Source of the DNA: Phycisphaerales bacterium
Lineage (GTDB): Bacteria; Planctomycetota; Phycisphaerae; Phycisphaerales; SM1A02
Assembly: GCA_009692045.1 (NCBI GenBank)
Contig: SIAA01000022.1
Location: 1-32,117, forward strand
Direction of reading: 5' to 3'
Length of the DNA stretch: 32,117 nt
The notes beneath the pieces are model-generated. The model was not told where the DNA came from, ran no database searches, and saw only the letters and a program-made list of their open reading frames with translations. Each line of letters opens with the position of its first letter. Positions within the stretch are counted from its first letter, which is position 1. Made by a program: the position numbers and the translations under genes. Shown one piece after another: positions 17,544-30,472 of this stretch.

Positions 17544-20500
17544 ATGGCGATTGCTGCCGCGATAGTCACGGGAGTCGCGCTCGCCGCAAGCGGCGAGATC
17601 CCTTGGTCCTTTGCCCCGCTCGTGCAGCCCGCTGTCCCTTCCGTTGTTGGCCGATCAGCGCATCCGATTGATGCCTTCATTGATGCCCGGCTCCGAGAGA
17701 CCGGGGTAGCGGCAACGGCGCCCGCCGATGCCACAACCAGTTTGCGCCGACTGAGTCTTGACCTGACCGGACTTCCACCGACGCCCGCAGAACTTGACGC
17801 ATTTGCTTCGAGCCCGCCGATCGGGGCCGCAGCGGCTCTCGACGCCGGCGCCTCGGCTTGGAGCCGTGAAGTAGAGCGGCTCCTAGCAAGCCCGCGCTTC
17901 GGTGAGCATCAGGCGCGCTACTGGTTGGACGCGGTTCGCTACGCCGATACTCATGGTTTCCACTTTGATAATGAGCGCAGCATCTGGAAATACCGCGACT
18001 GGGTGGTGAACGCTTTCAACAGCAACATGCCCTTTGATCGGTTCACCATTGAGCAGCTGGCTGGTGATCTTCTGCCCGATGCCACCGATGAGAACCGCAT
18101 CGCCAGCGGATTCATTCGCTGTAATCCCACGACCAATGAGGGTGGCTCGATCGATGATGAGGTCATATTCCGCAACGCCTCCGATCGCGCCGATACCTAT
18201 TCGACGGTGTGGCTCGGACTCACCATGCACTGTGCCCAGTGCCACGACCACAAGTTTGATCCGCTGGATCAGCGCGACTATTACTCTCTTTATGCCTTCT
18301 TCAACTCGACTCAGGAGGCATCGATGGATGGCAATCTGGTTGATCCCGAGCCGGTGCTTCGGGTAGCAAGCCAGGCGGACAACGCTGAGATTGCGCGGCT
18401 CCGAGAGGGAGTTGCCCAAGGCGCGAGTCTGATCGAGAGTCTGATTCCATCGCTCGCGGACGAACGGGCCCAGTGGATGCAATCAGAGGCGGAGGTCGCC
18501 GCGCGAAGGTGGCAGTCTCTCGCCATCTCGAGTGTGTCTGCTGAGTCGGGGACAGTGCTGACCGCGGCGGGAGGTGTGATAGCGGCGAGTGGGGAAGTGC
18601 CCGCTGCTGATACCTACGAAATCGTGTGCGCCGCGCCAGCGGGGCCGATCACGGCGCTTCGTCTCGATGCCGACTTGCCGGCGAACGGCGTAGGTCCGGG
18701 GCGAGCCCCCAACGGAAATTTCGTTCTCACCGAAATCGAGCTAGTGGCGCGAAATGCCGAAGGCGTGACCACTCCGATCAAACTTAGTGGTGCAGCGGCG
18801 ACGCGGGAGCAGCAGGGATATCCGGTTGCCAATGCCGTCGATGGTGTTGTCAATCATGACAACGGCTGGGCCTGTCTGAATACTGCTCAGCAGCCGGGAC
18901 CAGCCACCGCAGTATTCCGGCTGGAGGCACCAACAACCATCCCCGTCGGGTCACAACTAGTTGTGCGTCTTCTCTGCCGCAGCATGTTTGCCCAGCACAC
19001 ATTGGCGAGCATGCGGCTCGCGGTGCGAACTGAATCCGGAGCACCAGTTCTGCACCTTTCGCCCTGGCGGCTCTCCAAACCGCTGCCGGGAGCCTCGCGG
19101 CAGCAGGCGTACGGCACCGACTCGGCAGCGCTTGAAGTCCGGCGCGAAGCGGACCTCTCGTCGTCGCTGGAGATGCGCGAGGTGACTCAGCCAGATGGCG
19201 AGGTGATTGATATTCCCTTCACGCCGGTGGCTTCCGTGTTTGCGGCCAGAACCATTCGCACTGATCGACCCGTGAGCATGCGTGCGATGATCGCTCACGA
19301 TGACGCCTTGAAGGTATTCATCAACGGCAGGCTGGTGTTTGCCCGTGATGTGGATCAGGCAGTCACGGCGCCGCCGACTGCGGTGATTCTGCCTCTCGAT
19401 GCGGGAGAGAATCTGCTGGTACTCAAAATTGTCAATGGTGGAGGCGAGTTTGGTTACTCATTCAAGCTCGACGGAGAGTTCCCCGATCCGATGGAGTCTC
19501 GCGTGCACGGGTTGTTAGCCCTCGATGGCCCGGTATGTTCCGAGGCGCAAAAGCAGGAGATGGCGCGGTGGCATGCAGAAAGTGTTTGCCCCGAAGGCAG
19601 AGTTGCCGCCACGCAGGTGGCAACGCAGCGCAGCCGATTGCAGGGACTCGAATCGGCTCTGCCTCCGACTCTGATCGCACGGGAGATGGCGGCACCTCGG
19701 GCTGCACGCGTGCTCATGCGAGGTCAGTACGACAAGCCCGGGGATGTGGCCGAGCGCGCCACTCCCAAGTCACTGCCACCCATGCGCGACACTCAGCCGA
19801 AGGACAGGAGCGGGCTGGCGCAGTGGACCGTCGATCCCGCCAATCCGCTGACGGCGCGTGTTCTTGTGAATCGAATCTGGCAGCAGTACTTCGGAGTCGG
19901 GCTGGTTCGCACTAGTGAGGACTTTGGCGTGCGTGGTGAGCGCCCGAGTCATCCGGAACTGCTCGACTGGTTGGCAGCAGACCTCGTGGCCAATGGTTGG
20001 AACTTGAAGCGATTGCACACTCTGATTGTCACGAGTGCCGCCTACCGCCGCAGCGCGGCTGCCGAAGAAACGCAGCGCACCAGCGATCCGGAGAATCGAT
20101 TGCTGGCGCGCGGGCCGCGCTTTCGGCTGGATGCCGAAGTGATTCGGGATCAGGCTTTGTGGGCTGGCGGCATATTGGTGGAGCGGCTCGGTGGAGCCGG
20201 AGTTCGACCAGTTCAGCCGGATGGAGTCTGGGAGGTCGTGGCGTTTGTCGGCAGCAACACTCAGTTCTATCAAACCGGAAAGGGCGATGATCTGCACCGC
20301 CGCAGTCTCTATTCCTTCCACAAGCGCACCGCGCCACCGGCATCGATGTCGACCTTCGACGCGCCCAGCCGTGAGGCCAGTTGCGTGCGCCGCGAGCGCA
20401 CCAACACACCCCTCCAAGCTCTAGTCACCATGAACGACGCTCAGTTTGTCGAGGCCTCCCGCGCCTTGGCCCAGCGGATTCTGCTCGAGGGCGGAACAAC

Positions 20501-20753
20501 TGATAGCGAGCGAATGGAATTCCTCTTCCGCACGCTCACCGCAAGGTTTCCCCAGCCAAGAGAGAGCAGCGAAATGGCAGCGTTCCTTGCCGAATCGCGT
20601 AAGGCCTTCGCCAATGATCCCGCTCGCGCTCAGGCACTGTTGCAACTTGGAGCAACCCCGCGCGACCCGAACATTGACCCTATCGAGCACGCGGCATGGA
20701 CCATGGTGGCAAACCTAGTTCTCAATCTGGATGAGTCACTATGCAAGGGATGA
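17544..20753 (+). CDS. Large secreted DUF1549/DUF1553 (PSD1-type) planctomycete protein
   Basis: A 1069-aa protein of the planctomycete surface/periplasmic PSCyt2-PSD1 family. A short N-terminal hydrophobic stretch ([15 protein letters not shown]) may act as a signal. The DUF1549 (PSCyt2) domain begins near 60 ([21 protein letters not shown]) and contains CAQCH (C230, C233, H234), a haem-c-like motif followed by [20 protein letters not shown] middle region (~300-700) resembles a beta-sandwich/PA14-like spacer. The DUF1553 (PSD1) domain at ~760-1060 has [36 protein letters not shown] and [17 protein letters not shown]. The separate N-terminal PSC cytochrome domain is absent. It forms an operon with the DUF1501 gene. 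The function is unknown in the family, and a role in glycan or sulfated-polymer breakdown is often suggested. Confidence 0.9.
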
Positions 20754-22210
20754 TGTCAACAAATGAGGCTCAGCTAGGGATCAATCGCCGCCACTTTTTC
20801 TCCGGTTGCGCCGGTGGCGTTGCTGGTGCGCTCGGGGGAATGGCTCTCACTTCACTCCTCGCTCGCGAGGCCACGGCGAGCCCTCGCGGTGAGCCAGCAA
20901 AACGGCTGCCGCACTTTCCGCCTCGGGCCAAGCGCGTGATTTATCTGTGCCTTGCTGATGGTCCTTCGCAGATTGATCTGTTCGACTACAAGCCCAAGTT
21001 GGTGGATCACTTCGACAAGGACCTGCCTGAGTCAATAAGGCAGGGTCAGCGCATCACCACCATGACTAGCGGTCAGGCGCGATTTCCCGTCGCCCCGAGC
21101 AAGTTTGCCTTTCGTCAGCACGGCAAGAACGGTACCTGGCTGAGTGAGTTGCTTCCCAACATCGGAAGCATGGTCGATGACATCGCCATCGTGCGCAGCA
21201 TGAACACCAATGCCATCAATCATGATCCGGCTCTGACATTTCTCATGTCGGGACATGAGTTGCCGGGTCGGCCGAGTTTGGGCTCATGGCTCTCTTATGG
21301 TCTCGGCAGCGCTAACGCCGAGCTGCCGGCATTCGTGGTCTTGCACTCCACTTGGTCGAGTGGCACGGGCAGCCAGGCTCTGTTCAGCCGCCTGTGGGGC
21401 ACAGGCTTCCTGCCCAGCGAGTATCAAGGCGTGGCGCTGCGATCATCAGGCGATCCGGTTCTGTATCTAGGTGATCCCCCCGGTGTTGACGGCCTCATGC
21501 GCCGCCAACTCCTCGATCGCCTCGCCAATCTGAATCGAATTCAACATGCGGCGATCGGTGATCCCGAGACGGTGGCGCGCATTCAGCAGTATGAAATGGC
21601 CTACCGCATGCAGGCATCTGTTCCCGAGTTGATTGGTCGCGGCGATGAGACGGCGGAGACCTACGAACTCTACGGGCCCGATGCCAAGACTCCCGGCACA
21701 TTCGCCTCAAACTGCCTGCTGGCCCGTCGCCTTGCCGAGCGCGATGTGCGCTTCGTGCAGGTCTATCACCGCGGCTGGGACCATCACGGCGACCTTGCTC
21801 CCAATCTGCCCAAGCAGTGCGCCGATGTCGACCGCGCCTGCTACGCGCTGGTCACTGATCTCAAGCGGCGCGGGATGCTTGATGACACGCTAGTGGTATG
21901 TGGCGGCGAGTTCGGCCGAACCGCCTACTGTCAGGGGCCGCTCACCAAGGAAAACTACGGACGCGATCACCATCCGCGCTGCTTCACCATGTGGCTCGCC
22001 GGCGGCGGGGTACGCGGCGGCGTGGTGCACGGAGAGACTGATGACTTCTCCTACAATGTTGTCGACGCGCCCGTGCATGTGCATGATCTGAACGCCACCA
22101 TTCTGCATCTGATGGGATTCAATCACGAGAAACTCACCCATCGCTATCAGGGGCGCGACTTCAGACTTACCGATGTGCATGGCAATGTGGTCCACGACAT
22201 TCTTCTTTGA
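20750..22210 (+). CDS. Tat-exported DUF1501 protein
   Basis: A 486-aa DUF1501 protein, a member of the alkaline-phosphatase/sulfatase-like fold family that pairs with PSD1 proteins. The N-terminus has a twin-arginine signal (INRRHFFSG, then [16 protein letters not shown]). Typical DUF1501 parts: [68 protein letters not shown] and [21 protein letters not shown], with many conserved His/Asp residues likely to bind metal. It overlaps the PSD1 stop by ATGATG. Starts at 20741, 20750 and 20753 are all possible. 20750 or 20753 best fit the coupled start with AAGGGA just ahead. Confidence 0.92.
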
Positions 22211-24282: not shown

Positions 24283-25305
24283 TCAGCCTCCGCCGAACAC
24301 CAGCAGGTCGTCGTACTCAACAACGACCTTGGGGTCGCCATAGGTTCCTGTGACGATATTCGTCACCGGCACCGCGGCGCTTCCTGGGCCATCCTTGCGC
24401 GAGAAGTAGATGGCATCAGGCCCCGCACTCAGCAAGAAGTACCGACCGCGCGCTGTCCCGGTTGTGCAGGGAATCGTCTTGGCACCGAGACCGGGATTGC
24501 GAATGATTTGCCCGAGTGTGCGATCGAAGGCGGAGAGTCCCAGACTTGAATCGGAGTCGACCGTTGCCGTAATCGTCGCCACCTGAAGAATGCTCTCGAG
24601 GCTCTGATTGAGGCTCGCTTCACCCAGTGCGGTGCTCTGCAGGTAGGGAAGCGCGCCCTTGCGAGTGAACTGGGGCAGGACGGTAGCGCTGGGCACACCA
24701 ACCATGGGGCCGGAGGCGCGCATCGAACGCAGGAAAATGATGGGCTGGCCCCACGCATCCTTGAGGTCAGGAAGTGCCGCGATCGCGCTCTCGCCGACTT
24801 GACCAACCACCGCGCCGATCTCGGCGGGCTTGGGTGTGTAGATCGGCGGATACTGCTTGCCGTTGACGCGCGGGCCCTTGCCGATTTCCTGAGGGTTGAT
24901 CTTCACTTCAAAGGTGTTGGGTGCTGTTCCAAAGGTATAGATGGTCCAGCCCGCTGCCGGAGTGAGGCTGGCGTACATCGGATCATCTTGGCGCACCGCG
25001 CCGCCCATCAGATGAAGCATCGCGTTCTCGGTTCCGGAAATCGGCGGCGCTGCGGTGGCGTTGTAAAAGTCCTCCGGTACGACTCCTGGGTAGTAACCGA
25101 ACTCCTGCATGAATGAATCGCAGGCCTTGCTGAACTCCTGCATGGTGCTCTGGGTCTGCGTGACCTTGGCCCGTTGCAGAGCCTTGCCCAGAGCAGGCAG
25201 CAGTAATCCCACGAGGAGCACGATGATGCCGATTGCCACCAACAGTTCGGTCAATGTAAAGGCGCGGCGACTGACAGGGGTGGGCGTAGGCATTCGTTGG
25301 TGCAT
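24283..25305 (-). CDS. Type IV pilin-like / type II pseudopilin protein
   Basis: A 340-aa protein with a typical prepilin leader: basic SRRA, then FTLTELLVAIGIIVLLVGLLLPAL. Residue -1 is Ala, where Gly is usual; E5 is present. The globular part (~55-340) contains a substantial Gly/Pro-rich beta portion and is long for a pilin, as in many planctomycete pseudopilins. A TATACT -10 at 25326-25331 and an AGGA at 25317-25320 precede the ATG at 25305. It ends the leftward flippase operon or has its own transcript. It may use the FHA-fused ATPase, but that is not shown by location. Confidence 0.85.
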   Translation of the reverse strand: MHQRMPTPTPVSRRAFTLTELLVAIGIIVLLVGLLLPALGKALQRAKVTQTQSTMQEFSKACDSFMQEFGYYPGVVPEDFYNATAAPPISGTENAMLHLMGGAVRQDDPMYASLTPAAGWTIYTFGTAPNTFEVKINPQEIGKGPRVNGKQYPPIYTPKPAEIGAVVGQVGESAIAALPDLKDAWGQPIIFLRSMRASGPMVGVPSATVLPQFTRKGALPYLQSTALGEASLNQSLESILQVATITATVDSDSSLGLSAFDRTLGQIIRNPGLGAKTIPCTTGTARGRYFLLSAGPDAIYFSRKDGPGSAAVPVTNIVTGTYGDPKVVVEYDDLLVFGGG

Positions 25306-25353: not shown

Positions 25354-25839
25354 CTAACGACATCGAACCTGGCGCATCCCTTCGTAGATCCCTACCGCCG
25401 CCGCCGTCGCCAGATTCAGACTGCGGGCGCGCTCATGGTCGACCATGGGGAGCTGTAACAGAGTTCCGGGGCCGAATCGGTTGGCCAACTGGTGGTGGAG
25501 TTCGGGAGGAACTCCGCCGTTCTCCTGTCCGAACAGCAGGTAATCACCCTCATTGAACTCCGCTTCCCAAAATGGCTTTCCGGACTGGGTAGTAAAGAGC
25601 CACATGCGGGCGGGCTTCTCATCAGCTAGAAACGAATCCCAGGTTTCATGCACTACGCAGTCGACAAACTCCCAGTAGTCGAGCCCGGCTCGGCGGCACG
25701 CCTTCTCATTCATCTCGAATCCAATGGGGCGAATGATGTGCAACCGGCAGCCCGTTGCCATGGTGGTGCGCCCGATGTTGCCGGTGTTGTTGGGAATCTG
25801 CGGTTGATACAGAACCACATTGAAGAGTGGATAGGCCAC
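25354..25839 (-). CDS. trmL: tRNA (cytidine/uridine-34-2'-O)-methyltransferase
   Basis: A 161-aa SPOUT methyltransferase of the TrmL/CspR family, which 2'-O-methylates the wobble base of tRNA-Leu isoacceptors. Motifs: QPQIPNNTGNIGRT at 12-25, GQENGGVP in the knot, and SLNLATAAAVGIYEGMR near the C-terminus. Length matches E. coli TrmL (157). The start is GTG at 25839, seven bases after the stop of the large secreted protein gene. It seems to be a housekeeping gene carried at the end of this operon. Confidence 0.94.
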   Translation of the reverse strand: MAYPLFNVVLYQPQIPNNTGNIGRTTMATGCRLHIIRPIGFEMNEKACRRAGLDYWEFVDCVVHETWDSFLADEKPARMWLFTTQSGKPFWEAEFNEGDYLLFGQENGGVPPELHHQLANRFGPGTLLQLPMVDHERARSLNLATAAAVGIYEGMRQVRCR

Positions 25840-25845
25840 GAGTGA

Positions 25846-28731
25846 CTAGTTCCCTTTCACGCCAGGCGGGAAAAACTCAACGACGGCGCGGTAGTAGAGC
25901 CTGCTCGAGTCTTCGATTCTGAGCGAGAGTTGCTGCAAGAAGGTCATATCCGACCAGCGGGGGTCCTGGGCAACGTTGTTGCTGCGGGGAAGAAAGGGCG
26001 TTCCATCGGCGTTACTGTCACGACCGGAGACAGTCAGTTGCTGGCGCAGCATGTCCCGCAGTCCCACGATTGACAAGCTGCCTTTGGCATCGACATCCTT
26101 GGAGTTGGCGATCCACTCCATGGCGAGGGGCAGATACCAATCCCAGATATACACCCCGTCCGCGCCTGCATCTTTGGCGGCCTGCAACTGCCCTTCGACG
26201 AACTCAGCAACCGTGAACGGGGGCAGTTGCGTTTGCTCGTTGATCAGCACGGTCGGATTGTGCCATCCCACTACGGGAAGAATGGGAAGCCGGCGGCCGG
26301 TGCGGGCGAGAACTGCAGCCTGCAGCACCCTCGCGCCCTCGACTTGCAAGTAAGTGTGCCAGTAGTTGCTGCTATGTCTACCCAGAGCCGGCAGGAGTGG
26401 ATCACCATAGACCGGTGTATCACGACCACCGATGCTGTGGATGGTGCCGGTGTACACGCGGGCATTCCAGGCCGCGAGATCCGGCCCCGGCGGTGCCGTC
26501 AGGAACCCTAGTGCCGCTGCGCGCGATCTCTCGGCATCAGTGGTTGCAGCGATGAGTTCGACGCGGTTCCATCCCGGCCGACCATCACTCTGCGACTTCA
26601 TGTAGCAAGTGGGAGTGATGGCATCGCAGCGACGGCCCACGAAATCAACAAACGAGTCTTCAAGAATGCTCGCGCGCGCCGTCGCTAGATTCTTGACAGC
26701 GCTCAGCAGTTGCTCGGCACCTAGCTTGCCGCGCGGAATTTGAACATGGGGGCTTCCACTGAGCACCGGATTATCCGCGAGGCCCATCATCGTGCGCAGT
26801 ACTCCGGCGCTGGCGGGGTTTCCCGGCCACCAGCCCTCGCACAGGCCATAGAAGGCGATGTGCGTCCGCGGGTACTTGTCGCGAATGGTTTGCAGCGCGG
26901 CATCGAACGCTGCCATCATCTTCCGGTCGCCATCAGAGCGTCCGCTAGGAATGGCGCCGCGCCACTCGGCGCACCAGCCCTCATAGTCGACATCGAGCAG
27001 TCCGGTCCAACTCTGGGGATCATGCAGAACTCGAAGAGCGGGGGAGTCTTCGACCCATCCATCAATAGAAGTGGATGTGACGCCTGAGACTGCCGTCGGT
27101 CCCCAGCCATAGGGCTTCTGAGGGAACTCTTGTATGTTCCACCCCGGAAATGATTGTTTACCTGCCTCCGGGCCAGCAGGATCGGACTGCCCTGCTTGCA
27201 TGCGTGCGACATCTCCCCACTGGGATGGATCGCCTTCATCCGGCGAGTTAGGGGGCGACTGTGGGTACATCTCCAGCACATTTGTTGAAACTTCGATCGA
27301 GCGCAGGAACTCGCTGAAGGTGCCGCTGTGAAAGGAAGTCGCACGGGTGGAGACGAGCGGCACCGGTTGCGCCAGGTCGAATGTCTCCACGAGGGGAGAG
27401 CCATCATCGTCGCGGGCAAGCATCTGAGTCTTGTCCAACTTCAACCAGACCCCCGTCGAGGTGAGGGGGACATCGAGTGAACGGGGTCGAGCGTTGATGA
27501 ACACTCGGATGCGGCGCACCTCGGGCGCGGTGGCGATCCGCCATACTTCGCCCGCGTCGACGCGAACGCCGGCGCAGAGTGCGGTGGAGGTCCATGTCGG
27601 CCTCGGCATTTCGATGGGCGCGAACTTCTGACCGACCTGCTGGAGCAAATCAGCCGCGGCAACCTCAGCAAGCGATGAGTTGGCGGCGCTACCCTCAAGG
27701 ACGAGGCCGGGAGCACCGTCGAGCAGAAGCAGTCTTGCCAATTCCGTGATGTACTTGGTTTCGCTGAAGGGGTTGAGAACTGCCTCATCTGCTCCCTCAA
27801 CGCTTGCGCTGATCCAGGGGCGAACCGGTCGCTGATCGCTGCCGCGAATGGATCGGGTGCGATGCACCAACTTGCGAACGGCATCGAAACCCGCCCCGCC
27901 AGCGGGGCCGAGATTTCCGCGCGACCAATCCACGGCGGATTTGTCAATCCGTCCCGTGACTGTTACGCCCGACTCCGGCAACTTGTCGGAGGTAGTGCGA
28001 ACATCTGGTGCTGCATGCGCATTGATGGAGGCGAGAGCGGGGGTGATCCCATATGAATCACGAACGCCGATGAGGAGGCCGGGGAAACTGGCCCGAATCG
28101 GCGCGACAATCGCGCTGGCAACGGCATCATCGAAAATTGTGCCGACTCCGTAGTCCCAGCGCAATCGGTCGGGAGTGCCCGAGGCGAGGTCCTGCAGCGA
28201 GTTCACACCCAGACGAGTTCGAAGTGCCGCAAACCGCGGGTCAGCGGCGATCGCTCCCCAGGTTGGATGTCCTAGGGGCGCGAGGCTGCCGACATCAAGA
28301 GTCCGTATCGGATCCACCAGCACGAGATCAGGCGCCACTCCGGTGGCTTTCAGTCGGCGGAAAAAGGTCTCAATCCGATCCTTGGTCGCTGCAGGCCCCG
28401 CCACGAGCCACGGTCCGGCAAACTCGTCGCGGAACCCGTCCTTGCGGATGCAGCCATCATCGAGGTGACCGACCAAGTCGAAGGCGAGGTCGCCGACCTC
28501 CAGCACGCGGGAACCCTCGGGAAGCGCCCGCAGCTCAAAGGCAATCGTGCTCGGATCTGAATCGCGCCTAACACGAAGAACGGCAGTGGCAGTAGCAGGC
28601 CCCGTTACCGTCACAGTCGCAAGCGGGGGAACTGAAGCGGCGGCTGAAGCGGGCGCGTTTGCTTGCGGCGCTTGCGCTTGAACCGATCCGGCAACAACGA
28701 GTGCGGCGACCCCCGATACACCGCGAGCCAT
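25846..28731 (-). CDS. Large secreted protein with glycoside-hydrolase-like (GH56-like?) features
   Basis: A 961-aa protein I cannot assign firmly. Signal peptide: MARGVSGVAALVVAGSVQAQ. The N-terminal half has a TIM-barrel-like mixed fold with VLVDPIRTLDVG. The C-terminal half has D582-Y-E584-G-W (in LLDVDYEGWCAEW), Y628 in HIAFYGLCEGWW, and GADGVYIWDWY at 856-866. This order, D-x-E then FYG, then G-A-D-G-x-x-I-W, resembles the GH56 hyaluronidase layout (DWE, FYG, GA.G.VIWG), where the E of DWE is the catalytic acid. This is inference, not a family assignment. The start at 28731 follows the flippase stop by five bases and starts the signal peptide. An earlier start at 28875 would overlap the flippase. 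Weak Shine-Dalgarno. Confidence 0.75.
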   Translation of the reverse strand: MARGVSGVAALVVAGSVQAQAPQANAPASAAASVPPLATVTVTGPATATAVLRVRRDSDPSTIAFELRALPEGSRVLEVGDLAFDLVGHLDDGCIRKDGFRDEFAGPWLVAGPAATKDRIETFFRRLKATGVAPDLVLVDPIRTLDVGSLAPLGHPTWGAIAADPRFAALRTRLGVNSLQDLASGTPDRLRWDYGVGTIFDDAVASAIVAPIRASFPGLLIGVRDSYGITPALASINAHAAPDVRTTSDKLPESGVTVTGRIDKSAVDWSRGNLGPAGGAGFDAVRKLVHRTRSIRGSDQRPVRPWISASVEGADEAVLNPFSETKYITELARLLLLDGAPGLVLEGSAANSSLAEVAAADLLQQVGQKFAPIEMPRPTWTSTALCAGVRVDAGEVWRIATAPEVRRIRVFINARPRSLDVPLTSTGVWLKLDKTQMLARDDDGSPLVETFDLAQPVPLVSTRATSFHSGTFSEFLRSIEVSTNVLEMYPQSPPNSPDEGDPSQWGDVARMQAGQSDPAGPEAGKQSFPGWNIQEFPQKPYGWGPTAVSGVTSTSIDGWVEDSPALRVLHDPQSWTGLLDVDYEGWCAEWRGAIPSGRSDGDRKMMAAFDAALQTIRDKYPRTHIAFYGLCEGWWPGNPASAGVLRTMMGLADNPVLSGSPHVQIPRGKLGAEQLLSAVKNLATARASILEDSFVDFVGRRCDAITPTCYMKSQSDGRPGWNRVELIAATTDAERSRAAALGFLTAPPGPDLAAWNARVYTGTIHSIGGRDTPVYGDPLLPALGRHSSNYWHTYLQVEGARVLQAAVLARTGRRLPILPVVGWHNPTVLINEQTQLPPFTVAEFVEGQLQAAKDAGADGVYIWDWYLPLAMEWIANSKDVDAKGSLSIVGLRDMLRQQLTVSGRDSNADGTPFLPRSNNVAQDPRWSDMTFLQQLSLRIEDSSRLYYRAVVEFFPPGVKGN

Positions 28732-28736
28732 CCAGT

Positions 28737-30263
28737 TCACAGTCTCAACAATCCGTTCAATCGTGGCTGAAAGCGCGCCGGCAGCACAGCGATAGTTGAT
28801 CGCAGCAGCGGTTCGCAGGCGACGCGCAGAGTGAAGAGAACGAGGGTCATATAGAGAGTTATGGTAATGGCGCACTCAAGCAGACCAACCAGCCGCAGGT
28901 CTACTTCGGCTGGGAGAATGCTCTTTACCGAGCTCGCTCCCAGCGAACTTGCGCCGACACCCGCGAGAGTGGCGAGAACTATGCCGTAGAGCATGTCTCG
29001 CATTGATTCATGTTTCCAAACACCATACCCCTTCATCAGAATCACCAGTTGTGCTGAGCTGACGAGCCCGGTGGTCAGGCCTACCCCAGCGGCGATGGCA
29101 ATGGCCGCATCACCGTCTGAGAGGTTTCTGCCATGTACATACCACCCGCCCGCGAGTGCGCCGATTGCCACGCTCGCCGCGCGCCAGAGATCGATGCGCA
29201 CCACCTTTCTGAATTCCTGCACGCCCATCAACGGACTAGCCATGATCGCCAACACCGTTGAAAACGCCAGACCACCAGAGAGCAGGTACACCGGATAAGC
29301 CGCCTGCGCCCACTTTCCCTTCCAAATCAGAAGCTCCATCGAAGGGAATACCGCAGCCATTCCCACCGACACGAGCGGGACGAAGACCATGCTGACGCTA
29401 AAGATGGTGCGCGCTGCCTTGGTAAGTCGAATCGGATCTTCCCGCAGGCGGGCTATAACCGGCACGAACACCCCCTGCAGGTTGTGGGTCATCATCATGG
29501 CGGGCTGACTGGCAAACTGATACGCGAAGTAATAGATACCGAGCGCACTCGAAGTGATGAACAACGATCCCACGAGGTAGTCAGCCTGCAGGGTGATGGT
29601 GGCAAGGACGCCAAGCAGCACTACCCACCGCATTGTGACTGAGGTCGGCTTGAACTTGGATGCGTCCCATTGAAATGCTCCTCTGCCGATTCCGCTGGCG
29701 AACAGACAGTAAATGGTCTCGATAAATGTTGCGAGGCACACCGGTACCGCCAGCGCCAGAGGTCCGTAACCCGACGTGGCCATGGCGATGGTCGCCGCCA
29801 ATCGCGCACCCGAGAGCGTCACTTCCAGTCGTGCCAGATCACGGAAGCGCAGGTCGCACTGCATCTTCGCGCGCGCGTGTTGGCCGATCGAGAGCAGAAA
29901 GAGCTGCAACCCCATCACGAAGAGGGTTGGGGACAGGCTCGGCTCTGAATACCACGACTCTGCCGGCAGCGCGACGCCCCAGGTGCCGATCGCGCCCATG
30001 GTTCCGCAGAAGAGCCCGAACCAGAAGAAGGGCCCTGCTGATTTCTCGAAATCTTCAGACTTGAATGTGGGAAGGTAGAAGTGAGTTCCGCCAGCTCGGA
30101 AGATGGCGGTGACGCCGATGATGCCCAGAGCCGTAGCGAATACGCCCACCTCTGAATCGGATAGGTATATCCCCACAACAATCTGGGAGCAGAACGAGAG
30201 CAGGCGCGTCACCACCGCGCCCATCATCGTCACCGCTACTCCGCTGGCTGTGTTCCGATCCAT
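28737..30263 (-). CDS. Polysaccharide/lipid-linked oligosaccharide flippase (Wzx/MATE-like)
   Basis: A 508-aa inner-membrane protein of the polysaccharide-synthesis (PST/Wzx, MOP superfamily) type, with 12-14 hydrophobic segments. It begins with TASGVAVTMMGAVVTRLLSF..VVGIYLSDSEVGVFATA, as in O-antigen flippases. It likely moves undecaprenyl- or lipid-linked oligosaccharide to the outer face. ATG 30263 is chosen over 30278 and 30344 because GGAG ends nine bases upstream. It is the first gene of a leftward operon with the secreted hydrolase-like protein (5-base gap), trmL and probably the pseudopilin gene. No glycosyltransferases lie nearby. Confidence 0.88.
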   Translation of the reverse strand: MDRNTASGVAVTMMGAVVTRLLSFCSQIVVGIYLSDSEVGVFATALGIIGVTAIFRAGGTHFYLPTFKSEDFEKSAGPFFWFGLFCGTMGAIGTWGVALPAESWYSEPSLSPTLFVMGLQLFLLSIGQHARAKMQCDLRFRDLARLEVTLSGARLAATIAMATSGYGPLALAVPVCLATFIETIYCLFASGIGRGAFQWDASKFKPTSVTMRWVVLLGVLATITLQADYLVGSLFITSSALGIYYFAYQFASQPAMMMTHNLQGVFVPVIARLREDPIRLTKAARTIFSVSMVFVPLVSVGMAAVFPSMELLIWKGKWAQAAYPVYLLSGGLAFSTVLAIMASPLMGVQEFRKVVRIDLWRAASVAIGALAGGWYVHGRNLSDGDAAIAIAAGVGLTTGLVSSAQLVILMKGYGVWKHESMRDMLYGIVLATLAGVGASSLGASSVKSILPAEVDLRLVGLLECAITITLYMTLVLFTLRVACEPLLRSTIAVLPARFQPRLNGLLRL

Positions 30264-30299
30264 AGTGCGAGTCTCCATGCCCGGAAGGAGAGTGGGAGT

Positions 30300-30305
30300 T
30301 ATACT
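30300..30305. promoter_or_regulatory. Divergent -10 region (TATACT / TATAGT-like)
   Basis: The sequence TTATACTAT is close to self-complementary. It gives TATACT on the plus strand for the 46-aa gene and TATAGT/TATAAC on the minus strand for the flippase gene, in the 68-base divergent gap. A small bidirectional promoter is a reasonable reading. Confidence 0.4.
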
Positions 30306-30331
30306 ATGAACCCACAAGCAAGGTCTTACCC

Positions 30332-30472
30332 ATGGGCGCAACACAAGTACTCATCGCAAACGGCATTTGGCTTCTATTCCTAGGCGGATGGTGCGTCGCC
30401 TACTTTCTTCAGGCGAGGGCAGACAAGGCCGCTGGTGGCAGGTTTGCGCCCGAGGATGAGCACTCCGCGTGA
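30332..30472 (+). CDS. 46-aa single-pass membrane peptide
   Basis: A 46-aa open frame: MGATQVLIAN, then a hydrophobic segment at 11-25 (GIWLLFLGGWCVAYF), then a basic/polar tail ending DEHSA. It starts 27 bases after TATACT and has AAGG about 11 bases upstream. It lies between the divergent flippase gene and tRNA-Arg, in a space too small for a larger gene. The pattern of a short N-terminus, one TM segment and a charged tail is typical of small regulatory membrane peptides, but the function is unknown. Confidence 0.5.
   Translation: MGATQVLIANGIWLLFLGGWCVAYFLQARADKAAGGRFAPEDEHSA

Follow-up and report, generated by a model that had tools for sequence, protein, structure and literature searches.

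A putatively secreted two-domain protein with a predicted GH56-like domain, encoded beside a polysaccharide flippase gene in a Phycisphaerales bacterium

The window (the whole stretch of DNA that was analysed) comprises 32,117 nucleotides of a Phycisphaerales bacterium genome (assembly GCA_009692045.1, contig SIAA01000022.1). It carries an ORF for a 961-aa protein at 25846..28731, which starts with an ATG at 28731 and runs down to 25846. The ORF is genuine and lies on the minus strand; an earlier sequence-only reading of this DNA had named no strand. An alternative upstream in-frame start (GTG at 28875) would make the gene overlap its neighbour. By eye, the first residues of the translation (1-20; 28672..28731, minus strand) resemble a signal peptide.

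Directly upstream, also on the minus strand, a computed Pfam match places a MOP/Wzx-type polysaccharide flippase gene (28737..30344; PF13440, E 1.3e-28), one of two PF13440 matches in this genome. Since the flippase gene ends at 28737, the gap between the two genes is exactly five bases, as had been claimed. Directly downstream lies a SpoU-type RNA methylase gene (25354..25839, minus strand; PF00588, E 5.8e-28) and, two genes downstream, that of a prepilin-like protein (24283-25305, minus strand; N_methyl, E 0.0021, just under the cut-off). The flippase aside, no polysaccharide gene was recognised near the 961-aa gene within the window. At 17544-22210 two genes resemble the planctomycete DUF1549/DUF1553 and DUF1501 pair.

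The protein is composed of two parts, which can be told apart by their separate sets of relatives: an N-terminal domain (residues ~57-450; 27382..28563, minus strand) and a C-terminal domain predicted to be GH56-like (residues ~460-900, boundaries approximate; 26032..27354, minus strand). The sequence-only reading had described a large GH56 hyaluronidase-like protein. The size of 961 aa is correct and the extra length comes from the second, N-terminal domain. The motifs D582-Y583-E584-G-W, F627-Y628-G629 and GADGVYIWDWY (856-866), on which that reading was based, are all found at these positions in the translation.

Direct searches with the 961-aa protein found no Pfam, NCBIfam or PDB sequence match at E <= 10 and no PHROGs match at E <= 1, and none in viral contigs. 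PF01630, the Pfam model of GH56, does not match the protein at E <= 10 (0 families), so that GH56 membership in the strict Pfam sense is not supported; nor did a PF01630 search find a match in the window's own genome. A search of the phylum with A1 gave two weak hits besides the window itself (L019 and L020). These read like phosphoesterases and were set aside as chance.

The family of the C-terminal domain was reached through intermediates. Genome-level searches for relatives were made within the phylum, and a wider contig scan used two conserved patterns. In the second genome of the genus, two contig pieces carry the only close relatives of this domain (51 and 54% identity). One weak match (E 0.0017) led to a stand-alone protein, P0003 (the same in L013, L021 and L051), which in turn, at E <= 0.01, has matches in 40 of the 181 genomes of the taxonomic family. 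In 36 of these the match is below 1e-8; the remaining four, which include the window's own genome and its sister, lie near E 0.001-0.01. A profile of 30 stand-alone relatives (A3) was built with the window protein excluded and a partial sequence, L042, dropped. The D-x-E pair is invariant in all 30. Against the PDB, the top match of A3 is the bee-venom GH56 hyaluronidase 1fcq (E 0.0011), followed by an unrelated entry at 0.17; one of four GH56 proteins was found in this way, the others not being recovered at E <= 10. Taken one at a time, three of the 30 members touch the PF01630 model (best E 0.0019).

PF01630 itself, at E <= 0.05, has matches in 17 of the 181 genomes of the taxonomic family, seven of them over the cut-off, and in none of 14 control genomes. 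Among the 17, the match in L084 (G134) resembles an acyltransferase and was set aside as chance, so that at least one genome in this count is apparently false. From 11 of the 15 fetched PF01630 loci (L076, L084, L088 and L089 were dropped) we built an intermediate profile, A11. All 11 members match PF01630 at E <= 0.1, the same model having been used to find them. A11 recovers the human HYAL1, bee, wasp and PH-20 enzymes from the PDB at 1.9e-7 to 3.2e-5 (next entry 0.26), GH56 being the sole glycosidase family at E <= 1. It also aligns with A3, profile against profile, with Prob 99.6 over 211 columns and D-x-E on D-x-E. Much stronger PF01630 matches (3.1e-21 to 1.3e-25) occur in another family of the order, in four of 246 genomes of the phylum, and overlap A3 matches at about 1e-10. 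These are clear GH56 homologues (L069-L072 and L124-L127) in four near-complete genomes, two of which consist of 1-2 contigs, so that contamination is unlikely. By these profile computations, the C-terminal half of the window protein belongs to a divergent GH56-like family.

Predicted structures agree. The AlphaFold model of L051 (329 aa, 16 sequences) has a pLDDT of 90.7 and a pTM of 0.90. Foldseek places five GH56 chains on top (3.1e-9 to 4.2e-8; next 4.3e-5), with modest TM-scores of 0.44-0.49 by query length. In VIA-align, the top six rows are GH56 entries, representing four proteins, with Z scores of 21.1 to 18.7 and an rmsd of 2.9-3.8 over 248-257 residues; GH164 follows as the next family at Z 14.2. 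The model of residues 451-961 of the window protein is poor (mean pLDDT 47.3). GH56 is nevertheless on top in Foldseek (1.8e-3) and occupies rows 1-6 in VIA-align (Z 12.1 to 11.3; next 9.0), a ranking that is not independent because the alignment behind the model contained the relatives. We consider a GH56-like fold of the C-terminal domain very likely.

The window protein can be placed in this family by several comparisons of differing reach. Among 1853 ORFs the A3 model scores it at E 2.5e-6, through two collinear pieces with modest scores; in the genome search A3 finds it only at 8.9e-4, over a short stretch. The protein and its counterpart in the second genome of the genus, taken as a pair, align with A3 at Prob 97.0 over just 63 columns, with A11 alone at Prob 51, and with the merged A3 and A11 profile at Prob 96.9 over 192 columns, all values for single comparisons. 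The 192 columns lie within residues 572-868 and the named motifs are in register. D582-Y583-E584 (26980..26988, minus strand, as are the following) falls on the GH56 catalytic D-x-E, which is D73-F-E75 in the family, F627-Y628-G629 (26845..26853) on the family FYG, Y710 (26602..26604) on the invariant Y165 of SxSxY, and W863, in the last-strand motif GADGVYIW (G856-W863; 26143..26166), on W249. Beyond the aspartate and glutamate, the GH56 signature includes supporting tyrosines and a last-strand tryptophan; in the computed alignment D582/E584, Y628, Y710 and W863 occupy these places.

A plain MAFFT multiple alignment shifts the D-x-E by two residues, to D580-x-D582. We favour the D582/E584 register because of the profile comparison and because a strand ends at D582 in the weak 451-961 model, as one does at D73 in the L051 model. 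The A3 score and the merged-profile alignment indicate that the motif resemblance is more than chance, and a catalytic role of D582 and E584 is likely. The GH56 call made by eye stands for fold and active site, as far as profiles and structures of relatives, the intermediates and the D582/E584 alignment can tell; it is not supported for strict PF01630 membership.

The gene neighbourhood provides a second line of evidence. In the second genome of the genus a flippase-type gene again lies directly upstream, with a gap of 38 bases, and downstream of the gene's end, which lies on another contig, come methylase-like and prepilin-like genes (named by likeness to those of the window) in the order seen in the window. 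We also surveyed the loci of 15 relatives using blastp clusters of roughly called ORFs, each cluster being named from one representative. A flippase cluster is present at 13 of the 15 loci, a Wzy-like cluster at 13 and both at 11 (counts taken with no random-locus baseline). A glycosyltransferase cluster is present at ten and an asparagine-synthase-like cluster at nine. A GDP-mannose-dehydratase-like cluster is found directly upstream on the same strand at 11 loci; two of the others start at a contig end and two have another gene there. The Wzy_C match of the Wzy-like representative is under the cut-off (21.2 versus 31.7 bits). Both the recurrence of the flippase neighbour in the second genome and the polysaccharide clusters around the relatives support the proposed link to polysaccharide export. 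With a flippase gene five bases upstream and such clusters around its relatives, the gene is encoded together with polymer export or polymerisation genes, as are the hydrolases of exopolysaccharide operons.

Enzymes of such operons include PelA, which sizes Pel, and AlgL, which clears alginate (PMC9894940 and PMC8829089). The likeness to PelA, PslG and AlgL of Pseudomonas is one of role only: a polymer-cutting enzyme is encoded with export or polymerisation genes. Those enzymes belong to other families and act on other polymers, whereas here the fold is predicted to be GH56-like. In GH56, as passages of PMC13080975 and also PMC12254123 describe, the acetamido oxygen of the substrate is the nucleophile, a glutamate the acid/base, and an aspartate stabilises the intermediate; in a snake GH56 enzyme these are Glu112 and Asp110 (PMC13080975). 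From this mechanism and the PelA and AlgL precedent we propose a secreted HexNAc-directed hydrolase that acts on the cell's own exported polysaccharide.

As a GH56-like domain with its catalytic acids apparently in place adjoins a polymer-export gene, the protein probably cuts the cell's own slime polysaccharide. An exported GH56-like hydrolase that trims this polymer is the best reading, with a probability of roughly 0.6. Activity, bond type, substrate and the role of the N-terminal domain are inferred as follows. The 961-aa protein would be exported and its C-terminal half would form a GH56-like (beta/alpha) barrel glycoside hydrolase. E584 would be the general acid/base, D582 would position the substrate's own 2-acetamido group, and a beta-linked HexNAc residue would be cleaved by the substrate-assisted retaining route of GH56. 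The substrate would be a HexNAc-containing exopolysaccharide, made by the cell itself and moved by the neighbouring Wzx-type flippase. The enzyme might trim, size or clear this polymer, as PelA or AlgL do elsewhere, while the N-terminal domain, having lost its own D-x-E, may hold or guide the chain. Hyaluronan as substrate found no support, and we lean slightly towards the cell's own exopolysaccharide in its place.

The same fold and chemistry could instead serve scavenging, with HexNAc polymers of foreign origin, such as algal, animal or bacterial glycans, broken down as food and the flippase an accidental neighbour. It is a single flippase gene that adjoins, with no recognisable polysaccharide cluster in the window, and a relative of the N-terminal domain in the same genome adjoins a PIG-L de-N-acetylase-like gene. 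The flippase neighbour recurs, however, in the second genome of the genus, and the loci of relatives of the C-terminal domain are biosynthetic clusters, with a flippase at 13 of 15; we therefore regard scavenging as unlikely.

The N-terminal domain bears on whether the protein is an enzyme at all. At E <= 0.001 its homologues, several of them short fragments, are present in 39 of the 181 genomes of the taxonomic family, and one, of 587 aa, is encoded in the window's own genome. The alignment contains 36 rows, 33 of them distinct, three being from two-domain proteins. D-x-E is kept in 29 of the 30 distinct relatives outside two-domain proteins. In the DNA examined around these 30, where positive controls worked, no C-terminal GH56-like domain was found, although some of the ORFs end at the edge of the locus. 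In the window protein the corresponding site is DPI (residues 140-142; 28306..28314, minus strand). The five two-domain proteins keep the N-terminal D-x-E in no case (DPI, DPR, GVV, DEV and EGE) and the C-terminal D-x-E in every case; as they come from two genera, they represent at most two independent cases. Compared with GH56-like profiles, the N-terminal family gave Prob 6 and 10.6 with eight sequences, and with 36 rows Prob 59 against the merged GH56-like profile, with D-x-E in register, which is suggestive of a second, related barrel. The sole hits of a profile of the N-terminal domain were designed WD-type repeats, matched through a short stretch and rejected as an artefact; no known fold was assigned to the domain.

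Other arrangements of this domain were also seen. Single-domain relatives at L002 1096-2859 (contig 46 of the window's own genome, where the PIG-L de-N-acetylase-like gene adjoins) and L010 1033-2778 keep D-N-E. The N-terminal family also occurs within proteins of 1455-1593-aa open frames (L098 610-4635 and L100-L102); the examined part of L098 has no Pfam match and its C-terminal part resembles, by eye, a polysaccharide lyase. A two-domain relative, L122 2040-5273, has dockerin type I repeats between its domains (Dockerin_1, E 4.3e-5 in the L008 copy).

The loss of the N-terminal D-x-E could mean that the protein has no catalytic activity and serves for binding or as a scaffold, with both of its barrels degenerate, in keeping with a C-terminal domain that is strongly diverged, has long inserts and lacks a direct family match. 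We consider this improbable: the C-terminal domain retains its D-x-E, both tyrosines and the tryptophan, and the second genome of the genus has this D-x-E too, even though other parts have diverged to ~51% identity. GH18 chitinases and related hydrolases share the barrel, the D-x-E and the substrate-assisted chemistry, and DxDxE is their signature motif. A barrel of another family such as GH18 (a chitinase or peptidoglycan hydrolase) is nevertheless very unlikely: the D580-x-D582-x-E584 of the two genomes of the genus is reminiscent of DxDxE, and GH18-type chains appear in the VIA-align list for L051 (4s3j at Z 12.4, 6k7z at Z 11.2), but these scores are clearly below those of GH56, the A11 search of the PDB recovered no glycosidase other than GH56 at E <= 1, the GH18 Pfam model does not match the 961-aa protein at E <= 10, and in alignment FYG and SxSxY fall on those of the GH56-like family.

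A copy of the domain was also encountered in phage DNA. In IMG/VR contigs, a 653-aa phage protein (L066 2674-4635, identical in L067) carries a GH56-like domain (L066 3001-3831, about 30% identical). Its first 100 residues match the baseplate wedge family phrog_232 (1.8e-6), and for the following gene similar genes were found in 75 records, from T4-like Synechococcus and other phages. This is likely to be a baseplate-borne polysaccharide depolymerase. Neither the stand-alone domain nor the phage copy has a match in phage records.

Among known enzymes, those of GH56 (human HYAL1 2pe4, PH-20 9jub, bee 1fcq and wasp 2atm) match the relatives best, both by structure and by profile, and the order of the D-x-E pair, FYG, SxSxY and the tryptophan of the last strand is shared. 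There are also differences: the window protein has no PF01630 match, its relative L051 is ~13-15% identical to the GH56 chains, and the protein is bacterial, with a second, N-terminal domain, long inserts and a gene beside a flippase. As Pfam recognises the stronger relatives, the superfamily as such is already known; the divergent branch, its gene context and the two-domain form look new. In the passages concerned, one review describes GH56 as mammalian and venom enzymes and places microbial hyaluronan-degrading enzymes in other families (PMC11669647), and GH56 genes, among others, are reported absent from one planctomycete genome (PMC5352709). Within limited open-access literature we found no paper on what a GH56-like enzyme does in planctomycetes or other bacteria.

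A wider reading joins these observations and is speculative; we think it doubtful as a whole. The Phycisphaerales might harbour an ancient bacterial lineage of the hyaluronidase superfamily that natively processes Wzx/Wzy-type exopolysaccharide. The window protein would then combine an inactive and an active barrel, descended from a common ancestor and working in tandem, a phage would have taken the domain into its baseplate, and the animal GH56 enzymes may descend from bacterial enzymes of this kind that trim polysaccharide.

If a GH56-like bacterial family is indeed tied to polysaccharide clusters, the origin and the ancestral role of the animal hyaluronidases would become testable, and new candidate enzymes for HexNAc polymers would be at hand. 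The finding also provides a lead to the function of a family that many planctomycete genomes carry and that has no Pfam name.
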